From Streptomyces sp. MJM8645 (lineage in GTDB: Bacteria > Actinomycetota > Actinomycetes > Streptomycetales > Streptomycetaceae): a stretch of DNA of 64,000 nucleotides. The DNA lies in NCBI RefSeq assembly GCF_001625365.1, contig NZ_LJJF01000001.1, forward strand, positions 744,001 through 808,000, in the 5' to 3' direction. The notes under the pieces are model-generated. The model was not told where the DNA came from and searched no databases. It saw only the letters and a program-made list of their open reading frames with translations. This document shows positions 6,804-21,727 of this stretch, in pieces. The position numbers and the translations under genes are program-made. Position 1 is the stretch's first letter, and the number at the start of each line of letters is the position of its first letter.

Positions 6804-7544
6804 ATGCACCGGCTACCCGAAGCTCCCACGATGAGTGCCGCGTTGGCGCGCATCGACTACCGCACCACCCCCGAGTACTACATCGACACCGAGCAGGTCG
6901 CCGACCCCGTCGTCGCGCGGCTGCTGAGCTGCTGTCCGACCGTCTTCGGGCTCAAGAAGGCCATCGTCGACCTGCTGGCCGGACGGTTGGACATCGAGCT
7001 ACCGGAGGGAGCCGGGGTCATCGAGCCCGGTGCCGTCGTCCGCGGCGAGGTGACCGTGGCGGCCGGCGCCGTCATCGCCGAGGGCGCGGTCGTCACCGGC
7101 CCGGTACTGGTCTGCCCCGGCTCGGTGATCGACTCCGGAGCCCGGGTCCGGGACCACACCGTCATCGGTCCCGGCTGCCGGATCGGCTGGGGCGCCGAGG
7201 TCACCCGCTCGCTGCTCACCGGCGGGGTCTTCATGAAGCACACCAGCTTCGTCGGCGACTCCGTCCTCGGCCTGGGGGTCAACATCGGCGCGTTCGTGTC
7301 CACCACCGGCCTGCGCGTCACCAGCGGCCCGGTCGTCGAGCCGGCCACCGAGGAGGTCTGCGCCCGTCTCGACGGCCACCGCGTCGCCACCGGCCAGACC
7401 AAGTTCGGCGCGGTCATCGGCGACGGAGTGATCGTCCCCGCCGGCACCGTGCTCCAGCCCGCCACCCTCATCGGCGCCCACTCCACGCTCTACCCCCGCA
7501 CCCAGATCGGCGGATTCTTCCCCGCCGGAAGCCAGGGAAGGTGA
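6804..7544 (+). CDS. GlmU-like left-handed beta-helix (hexapeptide-repeat) transferase
   Basis: 246 residues; ATG 6804 follows AGGAG by 8 nt. After a short N-terminal helical part the protein is a run of hexapeptide repeats (VIEPGAVVRGEVTVAAGAVI and on) forming a left-handed beta-helix. The segment MKHTSFVGDSVLGLGVNIGA resembles the GlmU acetyltransferase site (HLSYLGD...VNIGAG), including the His. The GlmU nucleotidyltransferase domain is absent. By family it should transfer an acyl group to an amino sugar or sugar phosphate. It is the first gene of an operon with MurA- and MurB-like enzymes (GTGA overlap with the next), so its substrate is probably a UDP-GlcNAc-like sugar (inference). Confidence 0.8.
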   Translation: MHRLPEAPTMSAALARIDYRTTPEYYIDTEQVADPVVARLLSCCPTVFGLKKAIVDLLAGRLDIELPEGAGVIEPGAVVRGEVTVAAGAVIAEGAVVTGPVLVCPGSVIDSGARVRDHTVIGPGCRIGWGAEVTRSLLTGGVFMKHTSFVGDSVLGLGVNIGAFVSTTGLRVTSGPVVEPATEEVCARLDGHRVATGQTKFGAVIGDGVIVPAGTVLQPATLIGAHSTLYPRTQIGGFFPAGSQGR

Positions 7545-7546
7545 CC

Positions 7547-8851
7547 ATGACCGCCACCACGACCCCCGACCAGCTCACCCTCCGGATCACCGGCGGCCAC
7601 CCGCTGCACGGTACGACGACCGTCCAGGGCAGCAAGAACATCGCCCTGCACCTGTACGCTGCCGCGATCCTCGCCGACCAGCCGCTCACCCTTACCGGCG
7701 CCCCCGCGATCCTCGACACCGGCGTGTGCGCGGAGATCCTTCACCGCACCGGCACCCGAGCCACCATCGCCGAGGGCGAGTTCGAGACCCGGCCCGCCGA
7801 CTCCTACTTCCCGGTCATCCCCGACGACCTCGGACGGTGCATCCGGACCACCGCGGTCATCGCGTCCGCGCTGCTGGCCCGCTCCGGCAAGGTCACCTTC
7901 CCACTGCCCGGCGGCGACGCCTTCTGCGCCCGGTACATCGACCTGCACCTGGCCGCCATGGAAGCCGCCGGCGCCGACGTCGAGGTCAACCGGGGCCGCG
8001 TGCGCGCCCGCTTCACCGGAACGAAGCGCCTTCCGTTCATCACCACCGTCAGCACCAAGAAGTGGGGCCCGAGCCTGGGCGCGACGGTCACCGCGATGCT
8101 GCTGGCCGCCCGCACCCCCGGCACGTCGTCCATCCTCGGGCCGAGCATCGAACCCGAGGTCACCGTATCCGCCGAACTCCTGGCTCGCTCCGGCGTCGGC
8201 ATCACCTGGCAAGGCACGGACGCCCTGCACGTCACCGGCACCGACCACATCGCCGGCGGCGTCTTCCCGGTCCCGTCCGACCGGCTGGAGGCCGCCACAC
8301 TGGCGCTCGCCGCCGCGATCACTGGCGGCACCGTCCACCTCGACGCCTTCCCGCCCTGCGGCTTCCCGCCAGGCCTGGTCTCGGTCTTCGCCGACACCGG
8401 GATCCTCCTGACCCCCGAGCGCGGCGGAACGACGGTCACCGTACCGGCCGGACTGCATGCGACGGAGATGGCCACCGGCCCCCACCCGGGTTACCCGACC
8501 GACGTCCAGCCCCAGCTGACCGCGGTCCTCACCCAGGCCGCCGGAACGTCCCGGATCGAGGAGCGGATCTACAGCCGACGCGACACCCACCTCGCCGCGC
8601 TGCGCAAGTTCGGCGCGGTCGTCAACGCGGAGGGCCAGCTGATCACCGTCGAGGGGCCCTCCGGGCTCGCCGCCGCTGACGTGGCGGGCGAGGACATCCG
8701 GGCCGCGACCGCGCTCGTGCTCGCCGCGCTGGCGGCCGAGGGCACCTCTACGATCCGGGGCATGTACCACCTCCGGCGCGGCTACGGCGACCTGCTGCCC
8801 AAACTCGCCGCGCTCGGTGCCAGCCTGACGATCGACCGGGAGATGCCGTGA
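7547..8851 (+). CDS. murA: MurA paralogue (enolpyruvyl transferase) with Asp at the catalytic Cys position
   Basis: 434 residues, EPSP synthase/MurA fold. MurA normally transfers enolpyruvate from PEP to UDP-GlcNAc. Conserved parts: QGSKNIAL (active-site Lys), PLPGGDAFCARYIDLH (loop of the catalytic Cys), HPGYPTDVQPQLTA (catalytic Asp) and HLRRGYGDLLPKLAALGA near the end. In the loop the usual GGCxIGAR reads GGDAFCAR: Asp124 (codon 7916-7918) replaces the Cys attacked by fosfomycin, as in mycobacterial and chlamydial MurA, which are naturally resistant. ATG 7547 has GGAAGG upstream; a GTG at 7541 overlaps the previous stop. It sits in an operon with GlmU-like and MurB-like genes, so it is a pathway paralogue, not a lone housekeeping murA. 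Confidence 0.9.
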   Translation: MTATTTPDQLTLRITGGHPLHGTTTVQGSKNIALHLYAAAILADQPLTLTGAPAILDTGVCAEILHRTGTRATIAEGEFETRPADSYFPVIPDDLGRCIRTTAVIASALLARSGKVTFPLPGGDAFCARYIDLHLAAMEAAGADVEVNRGRVRARFTGTKRLPFITTVSTKKWGPSLGATVTAMLLAARTPGTSSILGPSIEPEVTVSAELLARSGVGITWQGTDALHVTGTDHIAGGVFPVPSDRLEAATLALAAAITGGTVHLDAFPPCGFPPGLVSVFADTGILLTPERGGTTVTVPAGLHATEMATGPHPGYPTDVQPQLTAVLTQAAGTSRIEERIYSRRDTHLAALRKFGAVVNAEGQLITVEGPSGLAAADVAGEDIRAATALVLAALAAEGTSTIRGMYHLRRGYGDLLPKLAALGASLTIDREMP

Positions 8852-9882
8852 CCAGCACCAAGCCGTTGAGCCCCGACACCGTCGCCGAGCTGCAGCAGTG
8901 CCTCGACCTGCTGGTCGACGACGGCGCCCTGCCCGGCGGCGTCCTCGCCCACGGCGCCCGGAACGGCCGGCCCGCGTTCGTCTCCTCCGGCGTCATCGCG
9001 CCCGAGTGCGGGAACGCCGGGCCCGGCCCGGGCACGCTCTACGACGCCGCGTCGCTGACCAAGGTACTGGCCACCTGGCCGCTGATCGGGCTCACCGATG
9101 GCATCACCACCGACACCACGGTGCGGGACCTGCTGCCCGACCTGCCGGACCAGGTGCCCGGCGCGAACGTCACGATCGGGCAGATCCTCGCGCATACCTC
9201 CGGCCTGCGGCCCGAGACCCGTCTCGACCAGTACCGGGGCCGCACCGAACCCCTCGCGGAGCTGATCTGCGGCGAACCGCTGATCGCCGAACCCGGCGCC
9301 GGCCACCGGTACATCAACCGCGGGTTCATCCTCCTCGGCCTCGCGCTCGCCCACCTCCACGGCCGCCGCCTGGACGAGCTCGCCGCCGACCTCTGGCAGT
9401 CCCTCGGCATGACCCACACCACCTACGGACCCGTCAGCCGCTCCGCCGACGTCGCCCCGACCGAGCAGCGCCTCCCCGGCGGCCCGCGGCTGTGGGGCAT
9501 CCCGCACGACGACAACGCCACTCTGCTCGGCGGCGTCGCCGGCCACGCCGGCGTCTTCACCACCCCGGCCGACCTGGCCACCTTCGCCGACCGGCTCCTC
9601 ACCGCGTACACCTCCAGCCACGGACTGGGTGCCTGGCTCCGCACCAGCATGGAACCGAAGGCCGAGATCGAGCCCGGGCTCCACCGCGGCCTGGCCTGGA
9701 TCCTCGCCGACGGCGGCCGGGTCGCCTACCACCACGGCTTCACCGGCACCAGCCTCTACCTCGCCCCGGACACCGGCCGCTACCTGGCCATCTGCACCAA
9801 CGCCGTCTACCACCACCAGAACAACCGCACCCGGCTCGCCCCGCTCCGCAACCTCGCGCTCAAGGCCGTCGCCGCCGACTGA
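8848..9882 (+). CDS. Serine hydrolase of the beta-lactamase/DD-peptidase (S12) family
   Basis: 344 residues, no signal peptide, therefore cytoplasmic. Catalytic motifs of class C/S12 enzymes are present: S-x-x-K as AASLTKV (Ser69, Lys72), Y-x-N as YINRG (Tyr155, Asn157), and a late HHGFTGTS in the place of the KTG/HxG motif. The family includes beta-lactamases, D-Ala-D-Ala peptidases and esterases. A cytoplasmic member inside a MurA/MurB operon suggests an amide or ester hydrolysis or transfer on a muramyl-like or peptidyl intermediate, or self-protection. GTG 8848 overlaps the previous stop (GTGA), so it is translationally coupled. Confidence 0.85.
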   Translation: MTSTKPLSPDTVAELQQCLDLLVDDGALPGGVLAHGARNGRPAFVSSGVIAPECGNAGPGPGTLYDAASLTKVLATWPLIGLTDGITTDTTVRDLLPDLPDQVPGANVTIGQILAHTSGLRPETRLDQYRGRTEPLAELICGEPLIAEPGAGHRYINRGFILLGLALAHLHGRRLDELAADLWQSLGMTHTTYGPVSRSADVAPTEQRLPGGPRLWGIPHDDNATLLGGVAGHAGVFTTPADLATFADRLLTAYTSSHGLGAWLRTSMEPKAEIEPGLHRGLAWILADGGRVAYHHGFTGTSLYLAPDTGRYLAICTNAVYHHQNNRTRLAPLRNLALKAVAAD

Positions 9883-9894
9883 GAGGACCCTGCC

Positions 9895-10938
9895 GTGCCC
9901 CAGGCCACGCTCGCGTCGCTGACCACCCTCCGGCTCGGCGGGCCCGCCGGCGCCGTGCTCAACCTGTCCGACCCCGCGGACTGGCTCGACGCCGCCCGTG
10001 CGATCAGCGCCCAGGAGCAGAACGGTCCCGTCGTCCTGGGGCACGGCAGCAACGTGATCGCGGCGGATGCCGGCCACCCCGGCACCGTCGTGGTCATGAA
10101 CACCCGCGGCATCACCGCCAAGAAGCTCGACGACACCACGGTGGCCGTCACCGTCCAGGCCGGCCACCCGCTCACCGACCTCGTCCATTGGGCCGCTGCC
10201 GAACGGCTTGCCGGCATCGAGTGCCTGGCCGGGATCCCAGGCACCGTCGGCGCCGCGCCGGTCCAGAACGCCGGCGCATACGGCCAGCAGATCGCAGACT
10301 CCCTCCACAGCGTCACGGTCTGGGACTGGGGCATGGGCTGCCTGCGGACCTTCCCGGCCCAGTCCTGCCGCCTGCGCTACCGCAGCAGCCGCTTCAAGCG
10401 AACCCCCGGCCGCTGGACCATCCTCGCCGCCTCGCTCCACCTGACCCACACGCCGGCGGCCCCGATCACCTACCAGCCGCTCGCGGACGAGCTCGGCGTG
10501 CCCGTCGGCGCGCGCCCGACCGTTCCGGAGGTCACCGCGGCCGTACTCGCCAACCGCCGTCGGCGCGGCCTCCTCCTCGACCCGAGCGACCAGGACTCCC
10601 GGCAGGTCGGATCCGTCTTCCTCAACCCTCGAATCACCACCGCCCAGGCCACGCGCTGGTCCGACCGCGGCTGCCCGGTCCACCAGGACAGCGATGGCGG
10701 CCTCCGAGCCAGCGCCGGGTGGCTCCTGGAGCATGTCGGCTGCCGGCCCGGCCAAGCCGTCGCCGACGGCGTGCGCTGCTCGGAACGCCGGACCCTCACG
10801 GTCACCGCTCAAGGAGAGGCCACAGCGGCAGCGTTCGTCCGGGCGCTCGCTGACCTCACCGCCCAGGTCGCAGCTGCAACCGGAATCATCCTCCAGCCCG
10901 AGCCGACGCGCGTCGGCCAGTGGGTCACCGGCCCCTGA
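9895..10938 (+). CDS. murB: MurB paralogue (UDP-N-acetylenolpyruvoylglucosamine reductase)
   Basis: 347 residues. FAD-binding parts (LGHGSNVIAADAG; GIPGTVGAAPVQNAGAYG) and the catalytic-Ser motif GSVFLNP near residue 240 identify the MurB family, which reduces the enolpyruvyl ether to a lactyl ether using NADPH and FAD. It follows the MurA paralogue and the S12 hydrolase with a 12-bp gap and a GAGAGGA ribosome site. Together GlmU-like, MurA-like and MurB-like proteins recapitulate acetylation, enolpyruvylation and reduction in one operon. Ordinary peptidoglycan genes (murC-G, fts) are not nearby, so this copy is accessory. Confidence 0.9.
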   Translation: MPQATLASLTTLRLGGPAGAVLNLSDPADWLDAARAISAQEQNGPVVLGHGSNVIAADAGHPGTVVVMNTRGITAKKLDDTTVAVTVQAGHPLTDLVHWAAAERLAGIECLAGIPGTVGAAPVQNAGAYGQQIADSLHSVTVWDWGMGCLRTFPAQSCRLRYRSSRFKRTPGRWTILAASLHLTHTPAAPITYQPLADELGVPVGARPTVPEVTAAVLANRRRRGLLLDPSDQDSRQVGSVFLNPRITTAQATRWSDRGCPVHQDSDGGLRASAGWLLEHVGCRPGQAVADGVRCSERRTLTVTAQGEATAAAFVRALADLTAQVAAATGIILQPEPTRVGQWVTGP

Positions 10939-11251
10939 TCTCCCGCTGGCCTCAGCTACTTGCCACCTCCGCCACACGCCGGTCGATCAAGGTGGCTGGG
11001 CTGGCCGAGCGCACATTGCCGAACAGCTCTTGGCCCGCGAAATGAGGCAGTGCGATCCTCCACCGAGGGCTGGAATCTGATCAGCAGGCTTACCGTCAGC
11101 TACATCGTCCGAGTGTCCCGGTTGACCGAGGTCGCAGGCCGGATTGCTGCCCATCGGGGTGAAGGATCGACGAACAGGCCTTAGGCCTACAGCCTTTCGA
11201 TGACCTTCTTCACGGCTGAGGAGTTGTCCCCCGGCTACGGGAAGTCCGCAG

Positions 11252-11289
11252 GGCGCTCACCCCATGGCCGTGGAGGCAGGGTGAGCGCC
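11252..11289. terminator. Hairpin terminator between convergent genes
   Basis: Perfect 11-bp arms GGCGCTCACCC (11252-11262) and GGGTGAGCGCC (11279-11289), 16-nt loop. It lies just past the stop of the minus-strand MFS gene. The 310 bp between murB and this hairpin (10939-11251) hold no convincing gene. Confidence 0.7.
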
Positions 11290-11315
11290 TTCGCGCGTCC
11301 GGACGTCGCCGTTCG

Positions 11316-12803
11316 TCAGACCGGCGTAACCGGAAGGTCGTCGTGTGCGGGCCGTTCGCCCCTGGGTACGGCCAGCAGGGTGATCAGCACGCCGAGCACG
11401 GCGAAGCCCGCCCCGACGGCGAACGCGAGCCGGAAGCCCTCCGTCATCGCGTCGGCCATGGCCGGGCCGCCGGCCTGCTTGCCCTCAAGGAGCTCCCTGA
11501 TCCGGGCGTTGGCCACCGAGGAGAGCACGGCGAGCCCGAGCGCGCCGCCGATCTGCTGGGTGGTGTTGATGAGTCCGGAGGCGAGGCCCGACTCCTGCGG
11601 AGTCACACCGGAGACGGCGACGATGGTCACGGGCACGAACGAGAAGCCGAGTCCGAGTGCCGCGACCACCGAGGGCAGGAGCACGTCCCCGGCGAACGTG
11701 CCGTTGGCGGGGATGCGGGTGAACAGCAGGAGTCCCACCGCGGTGAGCGCCAGCCCGCAGGCGAGGACGGGCCTGGGCCCGACCTTGGTCACCAGCTGGG
11801 AGGCGGCGCCGGCGGCGACGATGCTCGCCACCGAGAAGGGCAGGTAGGACAGTCCGGCCTCCAGTGCGGAGAAGCCGAGCACCTGCTGGAGGTAGAGGGA
11901 GATGAAGAAGAACATCGACAGCAGCGCGGCGCCCACCAGCAGGGACACCGCGTTGGCGCTGGAGAGGTTGCGGTTGCGGAAGATCCGCAACGGCATCACC
12001 GGGTGCTTGACGAGACGCAGTTCGACCAGGGCGAAGACCAGCAGCAGGACCGCCGCGAGGCCCAGTAGCCCGATGGTCCTGGCCGAGCCCCAGCCCGCCC
12101 GCTCGGCGTCCACGAGCGCGTAGACCAGCACGCTGAGACCGCCGGTGACCAGTGCGGCGCCGGCGAAGTCGATGCCCGTGCGTTCGTGGCCGCGGCTCTC
12201 CCGGACGAACCTCGGTGTGAGGACGGCGGCGACGACGCAGATCGGCACGTTGACGAACATCACCCACTCCCAGCCCGCCCACTGGGTGAGCACACCGCCG
12301 AGCAGCACGCCGATGGCCCCGCCCGCTCCGGCGAGCGCGCCCCAGATGCCGAGGGCCTTGTTGCGTTCGGCGCCTTCGGTGAAGGTCGTGGTGACGATGG
12401 ACAGGGCGGCCGGCGCGATGATCGCGGCGCCGAGGCCCTGCCCGACCCGTGCGGCGATCAGCAGTCCCGCGGTCGGTGCGAGACCGCCGAGCAGTGACGT
12501 GGCGGCGAACAGGCCGAGCCCGGTCATGAACACCCGCCGCCGTCCGAGCAGATCGGCGGTCCGGCCGCCGAGCAGCAGGAAGCCGCCGAAGGCGAGTGCG
12601 TAGGCGTTGACGATCCACTGGACGTCGGAGTCGGCGAAGTGCAGGTCCCGCTGGATCGAGGGCAGCGCGACGTTCACGATCGAGGCGTCGAGCACCACCG
12701 TCAACTGGGCGACGGCCAGGACGACGAGCGCCTTCCAGCGGAGTGGATCCGGGGAGGGGGTCGAGGTCGAGGTCGATAAGGAGGAAGTGGGAGGCATGGC
12801 CAT
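11316..12803 (-). CDS. MFS drug exporter, DHA2 (EmrB/QacA) family, of the RiPP locus
   Basis: 495 residues with about 14 predicted membrane helices. Family signatures: VVLDASIVNVALPSIQRDL in the first helix and GGRTADLLGRRRVF (MFS motif A) after the second. DHA2 proteins use the proton gradient to export hydrophobic or cationic compounds. The gene is divergent from the TetR gene with only ~90 bp between start codons, a classical repressor-exporter pair, and lies next to the atropopeptide-type precursor, so export of the peptide product is the likely role (inference). Confidence 0.9.
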   Translation of the reverse strand: MAMPPTSSLSTSTSTPSPDPLRWKALVVLAVAQLTVVLDASIVNVALPSIQRDLHFADSDVQWIVNAYALAFGGFLLLGGRTADLLGRRRVFMTGLGLFAATSLLGGLAPTAGLLIAARVGQGLGAAIIAPAALSIVTTTFTEGAERNKALGIWGALAGAGGAIGVLLGGVLTQWAGWEWVMFVNVPICVVAAVLTPRFVRESRGHERTGIDFAGAALVTGGLSVLVYALVDAERAGWGSARTIGLLGLAAVLLLVFALVELRLVKHPVMPLRIFRNRNLSSANAVSLLVGAALLSMFFFISLYLQQVLGFSALEAGLSYLPFSVASIVAAGAASQLVTKVGPRPVLACGLALTAVGLLLFTRIPANGTFAGDVLLPSVVAALGLGFSFVPVTIVAVSGVTPQESGLASGLINTTQQIGGALGLAVLSSVANARIRELLEGKQAGGPAMADAMTEGFRLAFAVGAGFAVLGVLITLLAVPRGERPAHDDLPVTPV

Positions 12804-12837
12804 GGGAGGGATACGCTCCTGTGGGTTAAAGTGGTAA

Positions 12838-12861
12838 CCGGAATCGGACTCACGGTTCCGG
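12838..12861. promoter_or_regulatory. Candidate TetR operator
   Basis: Imperfect 24-bp palindrome with half-sites CCGGAA (12838-12843) and TTCCGG (12856-12861) in the short space between the divergent MFS and TetR start codons, where autoregulating TetR repressors normally bind. Confidence 0.5.
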
Positions 12862-12890
12862 ATGGCGACGATACGGAGGCGCGGTTCCCC

Positions 12891-13511
12891 TTGTCAAACA
12901 CCCCTTCCCCTCCCCCTTCCCGCTCCAGCACACCCACCGGCGGCAAGCTGCGCTCCGACGCCGCCCGCAACCGGCTCAAGGTGCTCGACGCCGCCCGAGC
13001 CGCCTTCTCCGAGTCCGGCCGGGACGCCCAGATGGGCGACATCGCCCGCAGGGCCGGGGTGGGCGTCGGGACGGTGTACCGCCACTTCCCCACCAAGGAA
13101 TCGCTGGCGGAAGCGATCGTGGAACACCGGTTCCAGCAGACCCTGGACTTCCTCAGGAACGAGGTGCTCCCCGACCCCGACCCCTGGCACGGCCTCGCCC
13201 GCTCCCTGGAGTTCTGCGGAATCATGCAGGAACAGGACCGGGGCTACGCGGAGACGGTCACCGCGATGGTCGGCGGCAGCACGTTCGACGCGGCGGCGAT
13301 CGCCGAACTCAACGAACTCACCGACAAGGTGCTCAAGCGCGCCCAGGCCGAGGGTTCGGTGCGAGAGGACCTGACCGTCGCTGACGTGTCACCGCTCTAC
13401 ATCGGCCTCTGCCACGTCGTGCAGGCCGGGGTCACCGACTGGCGCCGCTACCTCGGCATCATCCTCGACGGGCTGCGCCCGCGACGGTGCGCGGACTGCT
13501 CCCGCGACTGA
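12891..13511 (+). CDS. TetR-family repressor
   Basis: 206 residues from TTG 12891, which has GGAGG at 12875-12879; the frame is open further upstream (GTG 12831), but that start would place the operator inside the gene. The DNA-binding domain is clear (RLKVLDAARAAFSESG, then MGDIARRAGVGVGTVYRHF). The C-terminal ligand domain ends in a Cys/Asp-rich tail. It likely represses the divergent exporter and possibly the precursor/P450 transcript that begins 200 bp downstream on the same strand. Confidence 0.85.
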   Translation: MSNTPSPPPSRSSTPTGGKLRSDAARNRLKVLDAARAAFSESGRDAQMGDIARRAGVGVGTVYRHFPTKESLAEAIVEHRFQQTLDFLRNEVLPDPDPWHGLARSLEFCGIMQEQDRGYAETVTAMVGGSTFDAAAIAELNELTDKVLKRAQAEGSVREDLTVADVSPLYIGLCHVVQAGVTDWRRYLGIILDGLRPRRCADCSRD

Positions 13512-13707
13512 CACCGTCCATCGCCCGCCGCCGGGGGGCGAATCAGGAAATCCGCCGGCAAACCCCCCACCTCCCCAACTCCCTCGACAAGAACTCCCCC
13601 CAAAGGTGAACCCGATGGAGACCCGGCCGCGTGTCTACGTCTGTAGGGCGACTGCAGAGTGGCCTTACATTCGCTCAGCCACCTGGTAACGAAAGGGAGA
13701 CCCAAAG

Positions 13708-13788
13708 ATGAAGATCCTGTTCGCCATCCGTGACGCGTCCTTCGCCAAGAAGAGCCTGAAGGCCAGCGCTTGGTACATCTGGTACTAA
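13708..13788 (+). CDS. RiPP precursor peptide, atropopeptide (tryptorubin) type, core AWYIWY
   Basis: A 26-codon gene too short for routine ORF calling: ATG 13708, stop TAA 13786-13788, with AAGGGAG about 8 nt before the ATG. The leader (residues 1-20) begins MKILFAIRD and ends KKSLKAS; the last six residues are AWYIWY. From established knowledge, tryptorubin A is the hexapeptide Ala-Trp-Tyr-Ile-Trp-Tyr, made ribosomally and cross-linked by a cytochrome P450 into an atropisomeric bridge (atropopeptide family). Two P450 genes follow directly, and a TetR/exporter pair precedes. Leader removal from the core's N-side would need a protease not seen here. Confidence 0.93.
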   Translation: MKILFAIRDASFAKKSLKASAWYIWY

Positions 13789-13826
13789 GCCGGCTGATCG
13801 GTACCTCCGGTACCTGAACAGCTGAT

Positions 13827-13889
13827 CCGCCCCCGCCCCTGCCCCCCCTCGCGGCCTCCGCCGGGAGATCGGGCCCGGGGCGGGGGCGG
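13827..13889. terminator. Hairpin between precursor and P450 genes (attenuator or processing site)
   Basis: Perfect 13-bp arms CCGCCCCCGCCCC (13827-13839) and GGGGCGGGGGCGG (13877-13889) with a 37-nt loop. It sits 38 bp after the precursor stop and 33 bp before the first P450 start. A partial terminator or RNA-stabilising stem here would give more precursor than enzyme, as often seen in RiPP operons. Confidence 0.65.
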
Positions 13890-13922
13890 AGACCGCTCCC
13901 GGCAAAGTCTCGGAGACATCAC

Positions 13923-14981
13923 ATGGCCCTCTCCCCCGCCTCCGCCCGTTCGCGAACCACCGTGCTCTCCCCCCGACTTGAGGCCCTGCTCAGGGACCAT
14001 CTGGGCAAGGACGCCGTCCGGCTCGAACCCGACACGATCGGGGTCGCCGGGCCCGAGCTCACCGACCGGATCCTCGCCGCCCGGCGCGCCACCGAGATCG
14101 AACGGCCCACCTTCAAACCGCTGCACGGACGTTCGATCACCCGCACCGAGGCATCCTCGGTGACGCGGACGATCGGCAGCGACGTGCGCGAGGCACTGAA
14201 GGCCCCGCTGCCGCCGAACATCGACCTGTCCGGTCCGTGGCCGCTCACCGGACACCTCTTCCTGCGCGACCTCATCCTCGGCCGGGACCCGCGCCGACTG
14301 CGGATCCTGATGAGCCGCAACCTCGAACTGACGCCCCTGCTCACCTGGTTGGTGATCTCGGCCGGCGCCGCACTGCCCGGCAGGCCCAAGCCCGGCGACG
14401 ACCTCACCGAACTCGGCAAGCTCACCGCGAAGGCGGCCAACTACCAGGACCGACGGTACGCGCTCGGCATGTACCGCCGAGCCGCCGCACCGGTCTGCTT
14501 CACCATCTCCACCCTGGTCGCGAACGCGCTCTGGCTCGGCGCGCCGTTCGACGACAGCACGCCGAACCGGAACATCATCTTCGAGTCGCTGCGCCTGCTG
14601 CCGCCGTCCTGGAACATCCTGCGCCGCGCCTCGCCCGAGTACCCCGCGATCGACCCGCGGATCGGCGCCGGCGACGACGTCCTCGTCCTGCCGCTGCTCT
14701 CGCACCGCGACCCGGCCCTGTGGGAGGACCCGCACGAGTTCCGCCCGGAGCGCTGGGACCACCTCGACCCGGACAACACTCCCGGCTACCTGCCGTTCGG
14801 GCACACCTCCGAACGCTGCTGGGGCCGGCACATGGTGATGCCGCTCGCCGAACTGCTGCTGGACCAGATCCGTACGGCCGGCCTGGTCGTCGACCCCGAA
14901 CAGCGGACCGCCAAGGTGCCACTGCTCGGCCTGCTCGGCGTCAGCGAGATCCGCGTCCTGAAGCCACGCGGTGCACACTGA
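13923..14981 (+). CDS. Cytochrome P450 acting on the RiPP precursor (short variant)
   Basis: 352 residues, about 50 shorter than usual bacterial P450s; the N-terminal beta-domain is reduced. Present are the ExxR pair (FESLRLLP), the PERF-like FRPERW, and the heme-binding loop LPFGHTSERCWGRHM with Cys299 (codon 14817-14819). The I-helix acid/Thr pair is not recognisable. ATG 13923 has GGAG about 8 nt upstream. In known tryptorubin loci a P450 follows the precursor and makes the aryl-aryl and aryl-backbone bonds. This gene is the closest to the precursor and the most divergent P450 of the window, so it is the best candidate for cross-linking (inference). Confidence 0.85.
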   Translation: MALSPASARSRTTVLSPRLEALLRDHLGKDAVRLEPDTIGVAGPELTDRILAARRATEIERPTFKPLHGRSITRTEASSVTRTIGSDVREALKAPLPPNIDLSGPWPLTGHLFLRDLILGRDPRRLRILMSRNLELTPLLTWLVISAGAALPGRPKPGDDLTELGKLTAKAANYQDRRYALGMYRRAAAPVCFTISTLVANALWLGAPFDDSTPNRNIIFESLRLLPPSWNILRRASPEYPAIDPRIGAGDDVLVLPLLSHRDPALWEDPHEFRPERWDHLDPDNTPGYLPFGHTSERCWGRHMVMPLAELLLDQIRTAGLVVDPEQRTAKVPLLGLLGVSEIRVLKPRGAH

Positions 14982-16317
14982 TCACATGCACGATGATCAC
15001 ATACAAACCGAGCACGGGGATTCCGAGCGCGGGGATACCGAGCCCGGGGCTACCGAACACAGCGCCGACGAACCGGAGTTCGCCGACGGCCAGTTCTACG
15101 CCGACCCGCACGCCGCGTACCGCCGCTGGCGCACCGAGGGCGGCGCCCGCAAGGTCCGGTTCGGCGGCGCGGCCGGACTCGAAGGCTGGGTCGTCACCGG
15201 CCACGCCGAGTGCCGGGCCGCCCTCGCCGACCCCCGGCTGAGCAAGAAGGCCGTCACCGAGGCGTTCGCCCGACACGTCGGGAACTCCGAGGGCGGCCCG
15301 GGCCGCGACCTGATGACGCACATGCTCAACTCCGACCCCCCGGAGCACACCCGACTGCGCAAGCTGGTCCAACAGGCCTACACCGGGCGGCAGGTGGCGA
15401 CTCTACGCCCGATGGTCGAGCGCCACGTCGGCGCGCTGCTGGACCAACTCGACGGGCCCGACCCGGTCGAGCTGATCAGTGAGTTCGCACTGCCGCTGCC
15501 ACTCGCGGTCGTCTTCGAACTGTTCGGCGCGCCGCAGGCCGAACGGGAGAACCTCCAAGTCCGGGGCAACGCGGTCGATGCCGACCCGGAGGACGACGGC
15601 GAGGCGGACGGCGGAGCGGACGGCGCAGCGGACGGCGCAGCGGACGGCGAAGTCTCGGTGGAGACCGCCGAAGGCATGGCGAACTACCTGCGCGCCCTGG
15701 TCGACCACAAGCGCACCCACCCGGGCGACGACCTGATCTCCGAACTCCTCGCCGCCCAGGCGGACGGCGACCGGCTGACCGAGGCCGAGATCACCTCGAT
15801 GGCGTTCCTGCTCGCGATCGCCGGCCACCAGAGCACCGTCAACCTGATCACCAACGGCATCCACGCGCTGCTCCGCCACCCCGAGCAACTCGCGGCGCTG
15901 CGCGCGGATCCGGCGCTGCTTCCCGGCACGATCGAGGAAGTCCTGCGCTACGAGAGCCCGTTCAGCATCGCCTCGCTGCGCCGCACGACCGAGCCGGTGA
16001 CCATCGCGGGCACCACGATCCCGGCCGGCGAGTTCGTCCAGATCGCCCTGCTCGCCGCCAACCGCGACCCGGCCGTCTTCACCGACCCCGACCGCTTCGA
16101 CATCACCCGCCCGGACGCCACCCGACACCTCGCATTCGGCCACGGCATCCACCACTGCCTCGGCGCACAACTGGGCCGCCTCCAGGCCGAGGTCGCGTTC
16201 ACCGAACTGCTGCGCCGCTTCCCCGCCCTACGCCTAGCCGACCCGGCCGAGCCCGCACAGTGGCAGGAGAACCCGAGGCACCGCGGGCTGCTCAACCTGC
16301 GAGTGCTGCTGCACTGA
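14971..16317 (+). CDS. Second cytochrome P450 of the RiPP locus
   Basis: 448 residues, canonical bacterial P450. I-helix AIAGHQST has His where an acid usually precedes the Thr/Ser; ExxR is in EEVLRYESP; the heme loop is LAFGHGIHHCLGAQLGR. The start overlaps the previous gene (GTG 14971; ATG 14986 also possible), so the two are coupled. The N-terminal ~30 residues are low complexity (His/Glu/Gly), and bases 15604-15651 hold four 12-bp units (about GCGGACGGCGCA) coding an Asp/Gly/Ala-rich insert. It could perform a second oxidation of the peptide or share the cross-linking. Confidence 0.9.
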   Translation: MHTDHMHDDHIQTEHGDSERGDTEPGATEHSADEPEFADGQFYADPHAAYRRWRTEGGARKVRFGGAAGLEGWVVTGHAECRAALADPRLSKKAVTEAFARHVGNSEGGPGRDLMTHMLNSDPPEHTRLRKLVQQAYTGRQVATLRPMVERHVGALLDQLDGPDPVELISEFALPLPLAVVFELFGAPQAERENLQVRGNAVDADPEDDGEADGGADGAADGAADGEVSVETAEGMANYLRALVDHKRTHPGDDLISELLAAQADGDRLTEAEITSMAFLLAIAGHQSTVNLITNGIHALLRHPEQLAALRADPALLPGTIEEVLRYESPFSIASLRRTTEPVTIAGTTIPAGEFVQIALLAANRDPAVFTDPDRFDITRPDATRHLAFGHGIHHCLGAQLGRLQAEVAFTELLRRFPALRLADPAEPAQWQENPRHRGLLNLRVLLH

Positions 16318-16325
16318 CGCCGCCA

Positions 16326-16356
16326 GGCCCCCACCCACCCAAAGCCGGTGGGGGCC
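16326..16356. terminator. Hairpin terminator of the RiPP operon
   Basis: Perfect 10-bp arms GGCCCCCACC (16326-16335) and GGTGGGGGCC (16347-16356), starting 8 bp after the P450 stop. It marks the right end of the RiPP locus. Confidence 0.8.
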
Positions 16357-16851
16357 GAGCACATCACCCGCATGGCCCGGGTCGCGACCGCCCATCCGAC
16401 GCACCCCGTCGAGGACCAACTCCACACACCAGAACGGTCTCCACCGCGGTAAGTGGCAACTCCCCCGGACAGCCGTGCTCCCACGCGCCGCTTCCAGGAC
16501 TCACTGCGGCGGCGCTGAAGCTCTACGACCTTCCCCATGCCCGGGGCCAACTACCCGCAAGGCCGGCAACACTCCGCGGCAACCGGCGACCAGCCCCCGC
16601 CCCACTTCGCTTCGCCCAGCAGCGCCCACCACGCACCTGTCCCACATGAACACCACCCGGCGGACAGCCTCCTCCGCCGCGTATCCCGCACAACCAGCCG
16701 AACAGACCTGGCCCCGCAAGACCATTCAGACGCCGCCACGTCACCAGCGTCAGGCAGCGGCCCCGGACAATCTCAGCCACTGCCCCAGCGTCCAGCATGT
16801 ACGACAGCAACAGGCTGCCCCGAACCTCAGACGGCTACCACTGCCAACGGC
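16357..16851. other. Gene-free stretch with a minus-strand coding relic
   Basis: No intact gene. On the minus strand around 16700-16810 a frame reading MLDAGAVAEIVRGRCLTLVT resembles frames in the spacer duplications at about 17800-17850 and 22100-22170 (MLCAVVVAEVVWDRFLPLVT), suggesting decayed copies of one former gene or a conserved untranslated module next to the CRISPR leaders. Confidence 0.4.
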
Positions 16852-17020
16852 CCTCAACCTCCACATGCGGGTACGCTTCGAGAACTCAGGCCACGACATC
16901 GACAACCAGCCCTGGGGCAAGGAGAGATGGCAACAACACATCGGCCGTTCGACGGGCCCCCTACCAATCGAACTGAACCAATCAGGCCCCTCGACCGGTA
17001 ATCACCCCAGGCCAAAAAGC
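16852..17020 (+). promoter_or_regulatory. CRISPR leader of array 1
   Basis: 169-bp block ending at the first repeat of array 1 and nearly identical to 21348-21515 before array 4. It contains TACGCT at 16872-16877, 149 bp before the first repeat; the same hexamer stands 149, 138 and 137 bp before arrays 4, 2 and 5 and may be the -10 of the leader promoter. Confidence 0.65.
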
Positions 17021-17414
17021 ATCGGCCCCGCACCCGTGGGGATTGCTCCCCGGACCATCATGCGCGGGGGTTCACGGTGGTGTCGGCCCCGCGCTCGCAG
17101 GGATTGTTCCGAGCTTGCGGCGCTGCGGAGTCGGGGCGCCCTGTCGGGCCGCGCTCGCGGGGATTGCTCCGCGATCGGGACCTGGCTCGCCGGTCTTCGG
17201 GCGTTGACCCCGCACACGCGGGGATTGCTCCAACTACGTCGGCTTGATCAGTTGCAACCCCGGGTCGGCCCTGCGCTCGCGGGGATCGCTCCAGCGTTCC
17301 GCAGCGGTGCCAGCCGTACGCATTGTCGGCCCCGCGCTCGCGGGGATTACTCCAAGGGCTGCCACCGGATCCACAACCGCTTCATGTCGGCTCCGCGCTC
17401 GCGGGGATGGTTCA
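17021..17414 (+). CRISPR. CRISPR array 1 (7 repeats, 6 spacers, type I-E-like)
   Basis: Repeats start at 17021, 17082, 17143, 17203, 17264, 17325 and 17386; all are 29 nt except the third (28). All six spacers are 32 nt. The repeat carries the stem CCCCGCG-CT-CGCGGGG and ends GATTGCTCC. Several copies are degenerate, and the last ends GATGGTTCA, marking the leader-distal end. 29/32 geometry and the repeat sequence fit type I-E (Ecoli-like) systems of Streptomyces. No cas genes lie in the window. Confidence 0.95.
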
Positions 17415-18093
17415 GGGGACCAGCCCGTCGCACCATTGACCACCGGGAGTTGGTCTCGTCGAGGGTACGAGCAAGGCGGACACGAGCCTGCCAGAGCCGG
17501 TCGAAGACGGTGTCCAACCGCCTTCGACCGGCACACGGGCCCGCGCCACTGGCAACACACCACGGTGCTGCCCGACGCCCGCCGCGACACCGTCGAGTTC
17601 GCCGAACCGTCTACCAACGCCCCGCAATCGTCACCTGCACCACCGACCGGAACGGCCTCCAGGACAGCGGACAACACCCCAGAACGCGGCACCGGGACGA
17701 CGAGCGGCAAGCTGGCGGGCGGGAGGCTGCCGACGGACCTGCCGCTCGGCACCGCACCTCGACCCGAGCGAGAGCATCCAGACCCCCCGGCATCACCGGC
17801 GGCAGGAAGCGATCCCAAACGACCTCCGCCACCACCACGGCACACAGCATTTGCGACAACAGCACGTCACCCCCGCCCACCCAGCCACCTCCTGACCTCG
17901 GGCAGATACCAACGCCAACCGTCCCCAAGCACCGCCCCGGACCTTCCCGCACGAGTACGCTTCGGGAGCGCACGACACAGCTGACAACTCTCCCCACGTG
18001 CACGAAGAAGCATGAACTCCTTCACAGACCGCCTGCCTAATCGAACTGAATCAACTGACGGCACCTGACACGAATCACCGCAGGTCAGGAAGT
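17415..18093. repeat. 0.7-kb duplicated inter-array segment, copy A (includes leader of array 2)
   Basis: This segment is highly similar over its whole length to 21728-22407. Both begin right after a repeat ending GATGGTTCA (GACCAGCCCGTCGCACC) and end in the leader of the next array. The promoter-like TACGCT is at 17956-17961. Long plus-strand frames run through it and through the arrays, but they have no ribosome site and mirror the CRISPR repeats, so no gene is called. A weak minus-strand relic is noted under 16357-16851. Confidence 0.8.
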
Positions 18094-18488
18094 ATCGGCC
18101 CCGCGCTCGCGGGGATTGCTCCGCGGCGAGCGGATCGAGGTGGCCCCCGCCGTCATCGGCCCCGCGCTCGCGGGGATTGCTCCACGATCGGTACCCGCCT
18201 CGGCGCGCTGGAGCAGTCGGCCCCGCGCTCGCGGGGATCGCTCTCAGGCTTCCGCGTTCCGGCCGCGCTCGCTGCCATCGGCCCCGCACCCACAGGGATC
18301 GCTCCCGGGCAGCCCGGTGCAGCTCCGTCGACGCTTGATCGGTCTCGCGCTCGTGGGGATCGCTCCCGTGGCCACCTCGACGTCGATCCCGGTCTCCTAT
18401 CGGCACCGCGCTCGCGGGGATTGCTCCTCCGCCGGCCGGTATCGGGCTTTGCGCTCCTTATCGGCCCCGCGCCCGCGGGGATCGCTCC
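18094..18488 (+). CRISPR. CRISPR array 2 (7 repeats, 6 spacers)
   Basis: 29-nt repeats start at 18094, 18155, 18216, 18277, 18338, 18399 and 18460; all spacers are 32 nt. Repeat variants include CACCCACAGGG and TCTCGCGCTCGTGGG in the stem, so decay is scattered rather than only terminal. Leader to the left, same orientation as array 1. Confidence 0.95.
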
Positions 18489-18518
18489 GCCCCCGCTCGG
18501 CTTCGGCCGGGCGGGGGC
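18489..18518. terminator. Hairpin after array 2
   Basis: Arms GCCCCCGC (18489-18496) and GCGGGGGC (18511-18518) directly after the last repeat. It could terminate the array transcript and, on the other strand, the GntR gene. Confidence 0.55.
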
Positions 18519-18527
18519 GCTTCGTCG

Positions 18528-18629
18528 TTACGGGGTGTCGTGCGTCCACCGCCACACGCTGTCCGCGTCCGGCTCGTACCAGGACCGTCCGTCGGCGTAC
18601 CGGCCATGCCGCCATCGTGCGACCGGCAT
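18528..18629 (-). CDS. Possible 33-residue protein
   Basis: Short frame immediately after the GntR gene on the same strand, rich in Trp, Arg and Tyr (ends DSVWRWTHDTP). The composition (RWRHGRYADGRSWYEP) looks like a real small Streptomyces protein, but no ribosome binding site is visible before ATG 18629. It may be translated by coupling to the upstream stop (18643). Low confidence. Confidence 0.3.
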   Translation of the reverse strand: MPVARWRHGRYADGRSWYEPDADSVWRWTHDTP

Positions 18630-18642
18630 CGGACCATGCAGG

Positions 18643-19401
18643 TCAGGAACGTGGGGCGCGCCCGTACTCAGCAACCCAGCGCGAGGTGAGCACGATGTCT
18701 GCGGTCTCAACTGGGCGCCCGGTGGCCTGGTCGTAGTAGGTCCGTTCAATTGCCATCACCGGGACAGCGGGTGCAACACCGAGGGTCTGAGCCTCAGGTC
18801 GCGTGGCAGCCCTGGCACTCACGCGCTCAACGGGCACGCCCACGTCGATGCCGATGATCGCCATGCGGTCGGCGACGCCGATACCAGCGTGTGGACCGGC
18901 CTCGGGCAGGACGATCAAGCTGCCGCCAGTGGTGGCCATCGGTTCCCAGCTCTCTGCGAGCTGCACCGGGTCTCCGTCGGCCAGGTACACGTAGGTCGTG
19001 TGCATCACCGGATCGCCGGGCTGGATTTCCAGCCGGGCCGCGATGCGGGCCTCGGCGGCACGAGGCTGAGATTCGTGCCGCCAAGTACCGGCGACACCCT
19101 GTCTGGCGAGGGTGGCCTCCGTCGGGCTGCCGTCGCCGCGGGGTACGCGTTGACGGCGTACCAGGACGGTGGGCGGTTCCTGGCTGCGGACGTAGTAGCC
19201 GCGGCCATGGCGGGCGACGACCAGGCCCTCGGATTCGAGTAGCCGGTAGGCGTTCTGGCCGACGCCGTGGGAGTAGCCGAATTCCTCACGCAGTGCAGCG
19301 AGAGATGGCAACTGGGCTCCGGCTGCGAGCTGGCCGGTGAGGATCCGTTCGCGGATGTGGTCTGCGATGCGGAGGTAGGGGGATTCGGCGTCGCCTGCCA
19401 T
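18643..19401 (-). CDS. GntR-family regulator with UTRA domain
   Basis: 252 residues from ATG 19401, preceded by AGGAGG at 6-nt spacing. Winged HTH at residues 8-70 (YLRIADHIRERILTGQLAAG; LREEFGYSHGVGQNAYRLLE), then a UTRA ligand-binding domain (GDPVMHTTYVYLADGDPVQLAESW). The HutC/FarR subfamily is frequent on actinomycete plasmids and integrative elements (KorSA-like) and as a sugar-responsive repressor. It is divergent from four small genes (19499-20785) that probably form its regulon. The cassette lies between CRISPR arrays 2 and 3. Confidence 0.85.
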   Translation of the reverse strand: MAGDAESPYLRIADHIRERILTGQLAAGAQLPSLAALREEFGYSHGVGQNAYRLLESEGLVVARHGRGYYVRSQEPPTVLVRRQRVPRGDGSPTEATLARQGVAGTWRHESQPRAAEARIAARLEIQPGDPVMHTTYVYLADGDPVQLAESWEPMATTGGSLIVLPEAGPHAGIGVADRMAIIGIDVGVPVERVSARAATRPEAQTLGVAPAVPVMAIERTYYDQATGRPVETADIVLTSRWVAEYGRAPRS

Positions 19402-19457
19402 GCATGTCCTCCTACGTTCCGTGCTCGGTGGATGACAGAGTATGCGGCCAGGCCCTA

Positions 19458-19492
19458 CTGTATGTGTAGAGCTAATCCTTACATGTACTGGG
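19458..19492. promoter_or_regulatory. Divergent promoter/operator region of the GntR cassette
   Basis: AT-richer stretch between the divergent starts containing CTGTATGTGTAG and CTTACATGTACTG, which form an interrupted imperfect palindrome (TGTA...TACA type). Plausible GntR operator; not precise enough to define half-sites. Confidence 0.35.
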
Positions 19493-19498
19493 GGATCG

Positions 19499-19738
19499 GT
19501 GCAGATCGGCATGTGCGCAGGAGCCGTGAAGGCTGCGCTCGGTCAGGCCACAGGCGCCCACGTACGCGTTACGCGCCCCACCGCTGGAGTAGTGCGCCTG
19601 AGCGTCCCCGCGCCTGTCGACGAATCAGTCGAACGCTGGGCTGATGTCCTGGCCATCGTGCAGTCCTGCACCTCATGGGGATCCACGGACGCAACTGGCG
19701 CGGTGGTCGTTTGGGCCGAACTGGAGGAGCCGCAATGA
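19499..19738 (+). CDS. Hypothetical protein, 79 residues
   Basis: GTG 19499 after a G-rich site (CTGGGGGATCG). The sequence (GAVKAALGQATGAHVRVTRP; VERWADVLAIVQSCTSWGST) looks like a small soluble alpha/beta protein, with no family recognised. It overlaps the next gene by ATGA and is divergent from the GntR gene; similar tiny genes commonly accompany GntR regulators in Streptomyces. Confidence 0.55.
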   Translation: MQIGMCAGAVKAALGQATGAHVRVTRPTAGVVRLSVPAPVDESVERWADVLAIVQSCTSWGSTDATGAVVVWAELEEPQ

Positions 19739-19989
19739 TCTCCAGACCGGACGTCCCGTCCGGCATCGTCATCACTCTGGACACAGCCCAGGCCGGGCGC
19801 TACGTCAGCGCCGAGTGCCAACTCAACGCCCACCACGGGTGTCCCGGCGGCCTGTGGGACGAGTGCGGTGCTCGGGTGCTGGTATGCCTCTGCGGCCAGT
19901 CGGGGTGCCCCTGCGTTCGCAACCTGCCGAGCGGATCTCCCACCGGTGGCCCGAACCATCCCCCTCGCGATCAGGTCGAAACGCCCTGA
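19735..19989 (+). CDS. Hypothetical Cys-rich protein, 84 residues
   Basis: ATG 19735 overlaps the previous stop and has GGAGG upstream. Eight Cys lie in the central half (AECQLNAHHGCPGG, DECGARVLVCLCGQSGCPC), suggesting a metal-binding knuckle or disulfide-rich fold. Function unknown; translationally coupled to the 79-residue protein. Confidence 0.55.
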   Translation: MISRPDVPSGIVITLDTAQAGRYVSAECQLNAHHGCPGGLWDECGARVLVCLCGQSGCPCVRNLPSGSPTGGPNHPPRDQVETP

Positions 19990-20072
19990 TCAACCCTCCG
20001 CCTCCTCGCGGGCCTGACGACGACGTCGGCCCAGGAGGTTGCACCACTCGACACACCGAGAGGAGCACTACC

Positions 20073-20588
20073 ATGATCACTCCCGAACCCACCCCGGCAC
20101 AGGCGCCGCCCCCGACCGCTCCGGACCAGTTCGTGAGCGCGGCAACGTTCGACTCCGTCATCTCCACCGTGCTCTCCAACAACGAGGGCATGAACGTCGC
20201 GATGGCCACCCGGATCACCCGGGAAGCCATCGCGTTCGTGGTCGTGGGCGCCCGCCGCCCCCACCTGGCCATGGCGCCGTCCAGGATCGTGGACGAGGGC
20301 TGGCACGCGTTCCTCGTCCACACCGAGGCGTACGCCGAGTTGTGCGAGCGCGAGGGCCGGTTCGTGCACCACAGCCCGGGATTCGACCCGGGCAACTTCG
20401 ACCAGGACATCATGGAGCAGACCCAGGCTGCCATCCGGGAGGCGGGCTTCGAGGTCGACCAGGAACTGTGGCGGCCGCCGACGGACGACAGCCTGGTGAC
20501 CGTAGCGGCGAGCTGTCAGCACTCGCCCAGCTGTTCAATCAGGCCGATGAAGAAACCGGAGAAGCCCTGCACCAAGCCCGCTGAATAG
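20073..20588 (+). CDS. GRDP-like (glycine-rich domain-containing protein-like) hypothetical protein
   Basis: 171 residues, ATG 20073 with GAGAGGAG upstream. The core (RIVDEGWHAFLVHTEAYAEL, then GRFVHHSPGF) matches the small DUF found in glycine-rich domain-containing protein-like families (conserved WHAF...HH pattern), whose biochemical role is unknown. N-terminus Pro-rich; the C-terminal 25 residues are Cys/Pro/Lys-rich and look unrelated. Part of the small-gene run opposite GntR. Confidence 0.6.
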   Translation: MITPEPTPAQAPPPTAPDQFVSAATFDSVISTVLSNNEGMNVAMATRITREAIAFVVVGARRPHLAMAPSRIVDEGWHAFLVHTEAYAELCEREGRFVHHSPGFDPGNFDQDIMEQTQAAIREAGFEVDQELWRPPTDDSLVTVAASCQHSPSCSIRPMKKPEKPCTKPAE

Positions 20589-20635
20589 CGGACTCGGAAC
20601 GCGTACGCTGCCGGCACACGAGTAGGAGGCATCCG

Positions 20636-20785
20636 ATGGAGTGGATCGATCCGCGGTACGCAGACCTGGTCGCGTGCTACCGGCAGCAGGACTTCGAAGC
20701 TTTCGGGCCATTGCTCGAACGTCCCGACGGCGAGCCTGTGCCCCCGCGGCTCGGGTTCGTCATGGAGCCGCTTCGAGGCGAGTAG
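20636..20785 (+). CDS. Small protein, 49 residues
   Basis: ATG 20636 with a strong AGGAGG about 5 nt before it, and TACGCT upstream that could be a -10. Encodes an acidic, soluble peptide (MEWIDPRYADLVACYRQQDF) ending LRGE. No family recognised; the well-formed start signal supports translation. Confidence 0.5.
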   Translation: MEWIDPRYADLVACYRQQDFEAFGPLLERPDGEPVPPRLGFVMEPLRGE

Positions 20786-20826
20786 CAGCAGGTCAAGGCC
20801 CTGGCCGGCCCGATGGCCGGCCAGGG

Positions 20827-21024
20827 CTACTCGTCGCGGACCAGACGCCAGAGTGGCACGCCGATTGCCCGCGCGATGGCGCCGAGTTGGTCGAGCGTCG
20901 CAGGTGCGAGGCCGTTCTCGATCCACCCGATCGTGCGCCGGCCAAGTCCGGCGCGCTGCCCAAGCCGCTCCTGCGTGAGGTCCGCCTGTCGCCTGAGCGA
21001 GAGGATCCGGGCCCATGAACTCCT
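20827..21024 (-). pseudogene. XRE-type HTH gene truncated at its 5' end
   Basis: The frame encodes an almost complete Cro/C1 HTH (ARILSLRRQADLTQ, RTIGWIENGLAPATLDQL, ending RLVRDE) with a stop at 20827, but it has no start codon: a TGA closes the frame at 21025-21027. The break coincides with base 21014, where an 83-bp block shared with the other CRISPR leaders begins. The gene was therefore cut when the leader/array 3 module joined it. Confidence 0.7.
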
Positions 21025-21096
21025 TCACACGCCGCCTGCCCAATCGAACTGAATCTACTGACGGTCCCTGACACGAATCGCCGCAGGTCAGGAAGT

Positions 21097-21247
21097 GTCG
21101 GCCCCGCGCTCGCGGGGATTGCTCCAAGCGGTACTTCGCCTGGGCGATGCGCGCCAGGTCGGCCCCGCGCTCGCGGGGATTGCTCCGCGGGACACATTGC
21201 CATCGCCGAACTCACGCTGTTGGCCCAACACTTGCGGGGACTGTCCC
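21097..21247 (+). CRISPR. CRISPR array 3 (3 repeats, 2 spacers)
   Basis: Repeats at 21097-21125, 21158-21186 and a strongly degenerate third at 21219-21247 (GTTGGCCCAACACTTGCGGGG...); spacers 32 nt each. It has only the last 83 bp of the leader (21014-21096); the part with the putative promoter is replaced by the XRE relic, so transcription may be lost. Confidence 0.9.
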
Positions 21248-21515
21248 GTGGCAGATCCCCAGCCCGCCCGACGGACTTACCCCACAGCGCACCCAGCCAG
21301 CCCCTGACCTCGGGCAGGTACCGCTGCCAGCGGTCCTCAATCATCGTCTCAACCTCCACGTGCGGGTACGCTTCGGAGAGTCAGGCCACGACACTGACAA
21401 CCAGCCCTGGGGCAAGGAGAGATGGCAACAACGCATCGACTGTTCGACGGGACTTCTACCGATCGAACTGAATCAATCAAGCCCCTCAGCCGCTAATCAC
21501 CGCAGGTCAGAAAGT
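21248..21515. promoter_or_regulatory. Leader of array 4 and preceding relic
   Basis: 21348-21515 is the same leader type as before array 1 (TACGCT at 21367-21372, 149 bp before the first repeat). The 100 bp to its left resemble, on the minus strand, frames such as WQRYLPEVRGWLG that recur near the other arrays; no gene is supported. Confidence 0.55.
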
Positions 21516-21727
21516 ATCGGCCCCGCGCTCGCGGGGATCGCTCCTGCCGGTGGCCTTGGGCACCGAGCCCATGCCCATCGGCCCCGCGCTCGCGGGGATC
21601 GCTCCTGCACCGAGCCGGTGCTGATCGGCAACCAGGTATCGGCCCCGCGCTCGCGGGGATCGCTCCTCATCCCAAGAGGCAAGCGTGTCCAACTGGCCTT
21701 CGGCCCCGCGCTCGCGGGGATGGTTCA
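21516..21727 (+). CRISPR. CRISPR array 4 (4 repeats, 3 spacers)
   Basis: 29-nt repeats at 21516, 21577, 21638 and 21699, spacers 32 nt. The last repeat ends GATGGTTCA, like the last repeat of array 1, and is followed by copy B of the duplicated segment. Repeats 1-3 are identical (GATCGCTCC ending). Confidence 0.95.

Follow-up and report, generated by a model that had tools for sequence, protein, structure and literature searches.

The window analysed here, i.e., the whole stretch of 64,000 nucleotides, corresponds to positions 744001-808000 of contig C1 of the 9.23-Mb genome. At its positions 13708-13788 an open reading frame of 26 codons plus stop is located, the translation of which (MKILFAIRDASFAKKSLKASAWYIWY) ends in AWYIWY, as had been stated correctly, coordinates included, in an earlier sequence-only reading of this DNA. 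A ribosome site (GGGAG, 13695-13699) precedes the ATG by 8 nt and two P450 genes follow, the first at 13923-14981 and the second ending at 16317, both of which is in line with what had been claimed before. The features of the locus are listed below, whereby the counts refer to 80 related loci which were compared with the window.

11316-12803, minus strand: MFS exporter, divergent from the TetR gene, a neighbour outside the unit; homologues in 7 of the 80 loci.
12831-13511, plus strand: TetR regulator, a neighbour outside the unit, ending just before the block shared with Kitasatospora sp. MAA19; homologue in 1 of the 80 loci, there not upstream.
13540-13707, plus strand: upstream region common with MAA19, which probably holds promoter and 5' UTR (blastn block from 13525, clear alignment from about 13540).
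13708-13788, plus strand: precursor gene with leader (13708-13767, KSLK motif), core AWYIWY (13768-13785) and stop.
13791-13824, plus strand: smaller stem-loop inside the gap between precursor and P450-1.
13826-13890, plus strand: strong G+C-rich stem-loop inside the same gap.
13923-14981, plus strand: P450-1, atropopeptide-class cytochrome P450 (352 aa, PF00067), predicted to install the tryptorubin bonds.
14986-16317, plus strand: P450-2, putative relative of the LauB2 kind (PF00067), predicted to add a Trp-Tyr aryl ether.

Comparison of MKILFAIRDASFAKKSLKASAWYIWY with the NCBIfam model NF038372 (tryptorubin family precursor) revealed an end-to-end match of 47.4 bits, the cut-off being 33, and a whole-genome search identified the window precursor as the sole match (E 2.5e-10). 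Within the genus, 14 of 70 genomes, counting that of the window, contain such a match, as compared to none of 14 control genomes. Atropopeptide precursors were defined by a KSLK leader, a tryptophan at core position 2 and an adjacent P450 of the respective class (PMC11450843). In MKILFAIRDASFAKKSLKASAWYIWY the KSLK-type motif occupies residues 15-18 (residues 17-20 are given for the putative precursors in PMC11450843), Trp is found at position 2 of AWYIWY, and the adjacent P450-1 groups with the P450s of the 80 loci, its class being assigned by this grouping. By this definition, and together with the model match, the identification of the ORF as a putative atropopeptide precursor, proposed previously, is supported. 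The curated NCBI model covers exactly such peptides, while generic gene callers may miss a gene of 26 codons. Biarylitides, which derive from precursors of five residues (PMC13417212), were considered and rejected as identity of the product, as the precursor reported here has 26 residues and bears a leader.

Relatives of P450-1 were collected from genome contigs by exact peptide patterns and the best 80 of 99 were kept (the 80 loci, identity 53-96%), for five of which the contig ends within 1.9-4.6 kb upstream (L022, L052, L054, L065, L076). A KSLK-type precursor was identified upstream of the P450 gene in 77 of the 80 loci when a wider pattern was used and in 75 with a stricter one; by pattern, none was found in L036, L068 and L081. 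The core is exactly AWYIWY in 18 of these loci and more than 650 atropopeptide clusters have been published (PMC11450843), hence novelty can be claimed neither for the core nor for the type of cluster. Among its best 60 PDB matches P450-1 aligned only within residues 207-334, and the nearest PDB entries of P450-2 are TamI, an unnamed P450 and PikC; neither set of matches has a bearing on the chemistry.

As judged by sequence, P450-2 differs in kind from P450-1. Its gene starts with the ATG at 14986 or with a GTG at 14971, the latter overlapping the P450-1 gene. The closest proteins listed are from Kitasatospora, with 97% identity to a protein of Kitasatospora sp. NPDC056731, followed by 67% to a Streptomyces sp. 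MMG1121 protein and 64-65% to four S. laurentii proteins. When adjacency was defined as a same-strand match at most 700 nt downstream of P450-1, a relative of P450-2 was found in the window and in 17 of 86 P450-1 relatives, one of these (L026) carrying a remnant; matches that are non-adjacent or on the opposite strand were left uncounted (L024, 34%; L081, 57%, partial; L088, 45%). To the 80 loci, the underlying P450-1 tree (87 rows) adds the window and, from the same genus, 6 of 13 loci, the other seven being six which seemingly were already among the 80, plus L108. All 18 rows bearing P450-2 fall inside one subclade of 42 rows (SH-aLRT 98), and the presence of P450-2 requires 6 changes on this tree as compared to a mean of 16.5 after shuffling. 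The remaining 24 rows of the subclade are without an adjacent P450-2, two of them (L017, L022) ending less than 1.5 kb downstream of P450-1, meaning that the second P450 step is dispensable. All 18 loci bearing P450-2 possess a core of the type AWY[I/F/V]WY, so that the Tyr-6 needed for an ether is always present, a correlation which is confounded with ancestry.

For the P450-2 tree, 17 of the 18 loci (the L026 remnant was omitted) were combined with 26 of 120 listed proteins. In this tree, 32 of the 43 rows form a supported clade (SH-aLRT 99), to which belong the 17 loci, the four S. laurentii proteins, that of MMG1121 and ten further proteins; the 11 remaining rows fall outside. In its position beside P450-1 the P450-2 of the window matches the lau layout, and the tree groups it with the proteins of S. 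laurentii and MMG1121. The pairwise distances of P450-1 and P450-2 correlate strongly (Mantel r 0.946, n=17, none of 2000 permutations as high); at the level of the sequences compared, P450-2 has co-diverged with P450-1.

Two loci deviate from this picture. In L026 (Streptomyces monashensis, 7328-7642) P450-2 is represented by a match of 106 residues behind P450-1 and an AWYFWY precursor, which points to loss of the second step or to a frameshift in the gene. In L081 (Kutzneria sp. 744, 4461-5216), which is outside the subclade, the partial relative of P450-2 lies on the opposite strand upstream of P450-1, indicating that kin of P450-2 are not confined to the order precursor, P450-1, P450-2. 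A 12-bp tandem repeat (4.6 copies, 15595-15649) was furthermore observed within the P450-2 gene of the window, where it encodes the acidic ADGGADGAADGAADG stretch; among 18 aligned sequences this insert occurs in Kitasatospora rows only, with varying length, and is absent from the S. laurentii proteins.

The extent of the unit was deduced from comparison with Kitasatospora sp. MAA19 (L009), which possesses an identical precursor and both P450s (P450-1 96%, P450-2 89% identical) with a shorter acidic stretch in P450-2, while its flanks differ. Window positions 13525-16328 form one blastn block with the MAA19 stretch (92.5% identical), within which identity amounts to 85.8% for the upstream region (13525-13707), 100% for the precursor (81 of 81 nt), 96.2% for the gap, 96.6% for P450-1 and 94.8% for P450-2 outside of 81 gap columns. 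The identity of the precursor is weak evidence when taken alone, as at the 3.4% divergence of P450-1 only about three changes would be expected. Matches to the MAA19 flanks were found on contig C3 of the window genome, for the upstream side with 93-94% identity and for parts of the downstream side with 74-89%, whereas the only precursor and the only near-identical P450-1 of this genome are both located on C1. The two related genomes hence carry the same three genes at different places. A TetR/exporter pair had been described as preceding the precursor. The pair is indeed present upstream, but its membership in the cluster was rejected, since the block shared with MAA19 excludes it and since a TetR/MFS pair upstream of the precursor was found in none of the 80 related loci. 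Consistently, no TetR or MFS homologue was found in the MAA19 stretch compared, and a search of the MAA19-assigned genome for window positions 8800-13520, in which 40 of 1059 candidate places were scored, revealed no close copy (best match 67% over 1.2 kb). A consensus scan of 13400-16500 identified no promoter of the sigma-70 type.

Further features of the window were recorded outside of this unit. CRISPR-like arrays with repeats like CGGCCCCGCGCTCGCGGGGATTGCTCC and a spacing of about 61 bp are located at 17020-17420, 18095-18490 and 21514-21667. A gene row at 6804-10938, encoding a hexapeptide transferase, a protein with EPSP-synthase fold (MurA-like), a beta-lactamase-like hydrolase and a MurB-like protein, perhaps constitutes a small secondary pathway. 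At 31948-32499 a coding-like unit of 188 bp is repeated in tandem (2.9 copies), presumably resembling the DUF397 repeat.

Among published systems, the lau cluster of Streptomyces laurentii ATCC 31255, which consists of a precursor, the class P450 LauB1 and the second P450 LauB2 and has a similar counterpart in MMG1121 (PMC11450843), shares its gene set with the window. There, LauA together with LauB1 was reported to yield the tryptorubin B scaffold and the full cluster laurentirubin B, with the Trp-Tyr aryl ether credited to the second P450, while no atropopeptide was obtained from LauA and LauB2 in the absence of LauB1 (PMC11450843). A linear product of the LauA core was reported as WYIW (PMC12352619). 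The lau hexapeptide ion (m/z 895.3760, C49H51N8O9+; PMC11450843) equals the calculated value for AWYIWY minus 6 H (m/z 895.3773), i.e., the product formula fits the core found in the window. The two systems differ in that P450-2 of the window has a longer N-terminus than the S. laurentii proteins, besides the acidic insert, and in the host genus, which for the window is likely Kitasatospora. The tryptorubin A/B cluster shares the AWYIWY core, the KSLK leader and the class P450 with the window but is composed of two genes only, i.e., the precursor and one P450 (PMC11450843, PMC12352619), whereas the window has a second P450. The amyxirubin/jum, varsorubin and scabrirubin clusters likewise combine a KSLK-type leader with a class P450 but have other cores and are depicted with one P450 (PMC11450843), and for two further clusters that have been characterised an additional P450 with a modifying role was mentioned (PMC11450843). 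The comparison of leader and P450s with published loci, which had been asked for at the outset, returned a matching KSLK leader and class P450 in a layout equal to that of lau, and the window cluster is well supported, on the level of its genes, as a sound further example of the described tryptorubin/laurentirubin system.

The three genes (precursor, class P450 and second P450) constitute an atropopeptide cluster which probably makes laurentirubin-type peptides; the genes and their relatives were read from the sequence, and the proposed chemistry follows that published for lau. Laurentirubin rather than tryptorubin is suggested as the most likely product because of the lau-like P450-2 and the fit of the AWYIWY minus 6 H formula. 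The earlier naming of a tryptorubin core consequently holds for the core itself but not for the end product, for which one more bond is expected owing to the second P450. The proposed reaction sequence assumes that the leader with its KSLK motif docks the peptide in P450-1, which would then couple the aromatic residues of AWYIWY to the rigid tryptorubin scaffold with loss of 4 H, forming a Trp-Trp C-C bond, a Trp-Tyr C-N bond and a C-N bond from Trp to the backbone. Next, P450-2 would form an aryl ether between Trp-5 and Tyr-6, with loss of another 2 H. Finally, the leader would be removed by a host protease, no gene for which was found beside the cluster genes, and the alanine would be trimmed in part by a peptidase. 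Thus formed products are expected at [M+H]+ 895.377 (hexapeptide) and 824.340 (pentapeptide), whereas 897.393 and 826.356 would apply without P450-2 activity.

The low identity of P450-2 to the S. laurentii proteins (64-65%) and the acidic insert, confined to Kitasatospora rows among the sequences aligned, leave room for another fourth bond, and so do the two further clusters for which an additional P450 was mentioned (PMC11450843); in that case P450-2 would introduce a modification unlike that of LauB2 and the product would be a new atropopeptide; with core, gene order and clade being the same as for lau, this is regarded as rather unlikely. That the locus makes tryptorubin A/B itself, P450-2 being silent, inactive or acting on another substrate, would agree with AWYIWY being the tryptorubin core and with tryptorubin B being the product of LauA and LauB1 (PMC11450843), as well as with the absence of an adjacent P450-2 from 15 of the 18 AWYIWY loci and with the mere remnant kept in L026. 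It is nevertheless considered improbable, as the P450-2 gene overlaps or abuts that of P450-1, was retained with it in MAA19 and has co-diverged with it, and as ExxR and heme-cysteine motifs, applied here from general knowledge, are present in P450-2. A decayed or chance ORF without any product was rejected as exceedingly improbable: the gene is tiny and its translation a prediction, but it matches the curated model far over the cut-off as the single hit of the genome, is preceded by a ribosome site, is identical to its MAA19 counterpart and is followed by P450 genes free of stops.

Outside the window, a second locus of interest was identified near 1,061,175-1,063,550 of contig C1 (L116, 8176-10549), where a precursor-like ORF (MKMIKAIVKKFKRDEDLADHSWIAHVI), a P450 and a JmjC_2 oxygenase are found. 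Its P450 is the next-best P450-1 relative of the genome (37%, 218 bits), with 65 bits for the one ranked after it, and the ORF ahead of it encodes 27 residues ending in SWIAHVI; in MKMIKAIVKKFKRDEDLADHSWIAHVI neither a KSLK motif nor an NCBIfam match was found. Of 394 family genomes searched, 46 matched at E 1e-60, and all 19 loci with at least 75% identity, the own one included, encode a precursor ending in [AS]WxxH[VL]I and a downstream JmjC-type ORF, as identified by Pfam (JmjC_2) for the own locus only and by a JmjC-type motif for the others. Of these 19 loci, 11 were scored for the stability of the gap between precursor and P450, ten of them giving z < -2. Roseovertin, rubrin and lapparbin were described as P450-made 'cyptides', the links of which include Trp-to-His (PMC12299652), and L116 likely represents a family of Trp-His cross-linked peptides, possibly near roseovertin. 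No publication on the trio of precursor, P450 and JmjC protein was found in a literature search that mostly covered papers available without subscription, and this locus may be of more interest than the window cluster.

For the 134 nt that separate precursor and P450-1 (13789-13922) a fold of -83.1 kcal/mol (z -5.8) was calculated, none of 200 shuffles being as stable. The corresponding gaps of the window and 77 of the 80 loci (L036, L068 and L081 are out), whose ends were set by tblastn starts so that some take in a few P450 codons, gave a mean z of -2.9, with z < -2 in 56 of 78 loci; of the other 22, four are above 0. Among the Pseudomonadota loci, 6 of 10 precursor gaps were below -2. Other co-directional gaps, taken by a rough gene call from the window and 70 loci of actinobacteria, the 10 Pseudomonadota loci being left out, were below -2 in 15 of 65 cases; after thinning the precursor gaps to 42 representatives (<85% identity) 28 remained below -2, a significant difference to these controls (Fisher p 1.5e-5). 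Convergent gaps are low as well (mean z -2.1, 42% below -2, n=31), an intermediate position as is expected if terminator-like folds form part of the signal. Stems of at least 12 pairs occur in 67 of the 78 loci, a count made without control set. Within the gap, a consensus scan found no T-tailed intrinsic terminator, and no Rfam family reached threshold in window positions 11000-24000. Covariation was rejected as support, as the stem differences between window and MAA19 are without clear compensation; the case for the hairpin is consequently built solely on its stability as compared to shuffles and other gaps.

Expression of precursor over enzyme by means of such folds is known from other peptide clusters. 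The hairpin probably acts either as a terminator that leaks or by stabilising the 3' end, which favours the precursor over the enzyme; it is likely an expression valve or mRNA stabiliser which keeps precursor transcripts in excess of enzyme transcripts. More tentatively, it may be envisaged as an RNA valve common to the whole family, in Actinomycetota and Pseudomonadota alike, by which precursor transcripts would accumulate while the P450 is throttled. Such a valve would explain why insertion of a ribosome site before the P450 of one cluster increased the yield 100-fold (PMC11450843), a gain which is consistent with throttled P450 expression but no proof of it. The main text of PMC11450843 holds no mention of a terminator, hairpin, stem-loop or intergenic element, and that of PMC12352619 none of a terminator.

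Taken together, the window likely adds a second genus with the two-P450 laurentirubin layout, for which exact masses are given, and precursor and both enzymes appear to have stayed together and to have co-diverged. This also means that naming a product from its core sequence alone may be misleading, since whether AWYIWY gives rise to a tryptorubin or a laurentirubin would be decided by the second P450. Poor native yields could find a simple explanation in the hairpin within the gap, which may also serve as an easy handle for better expression.
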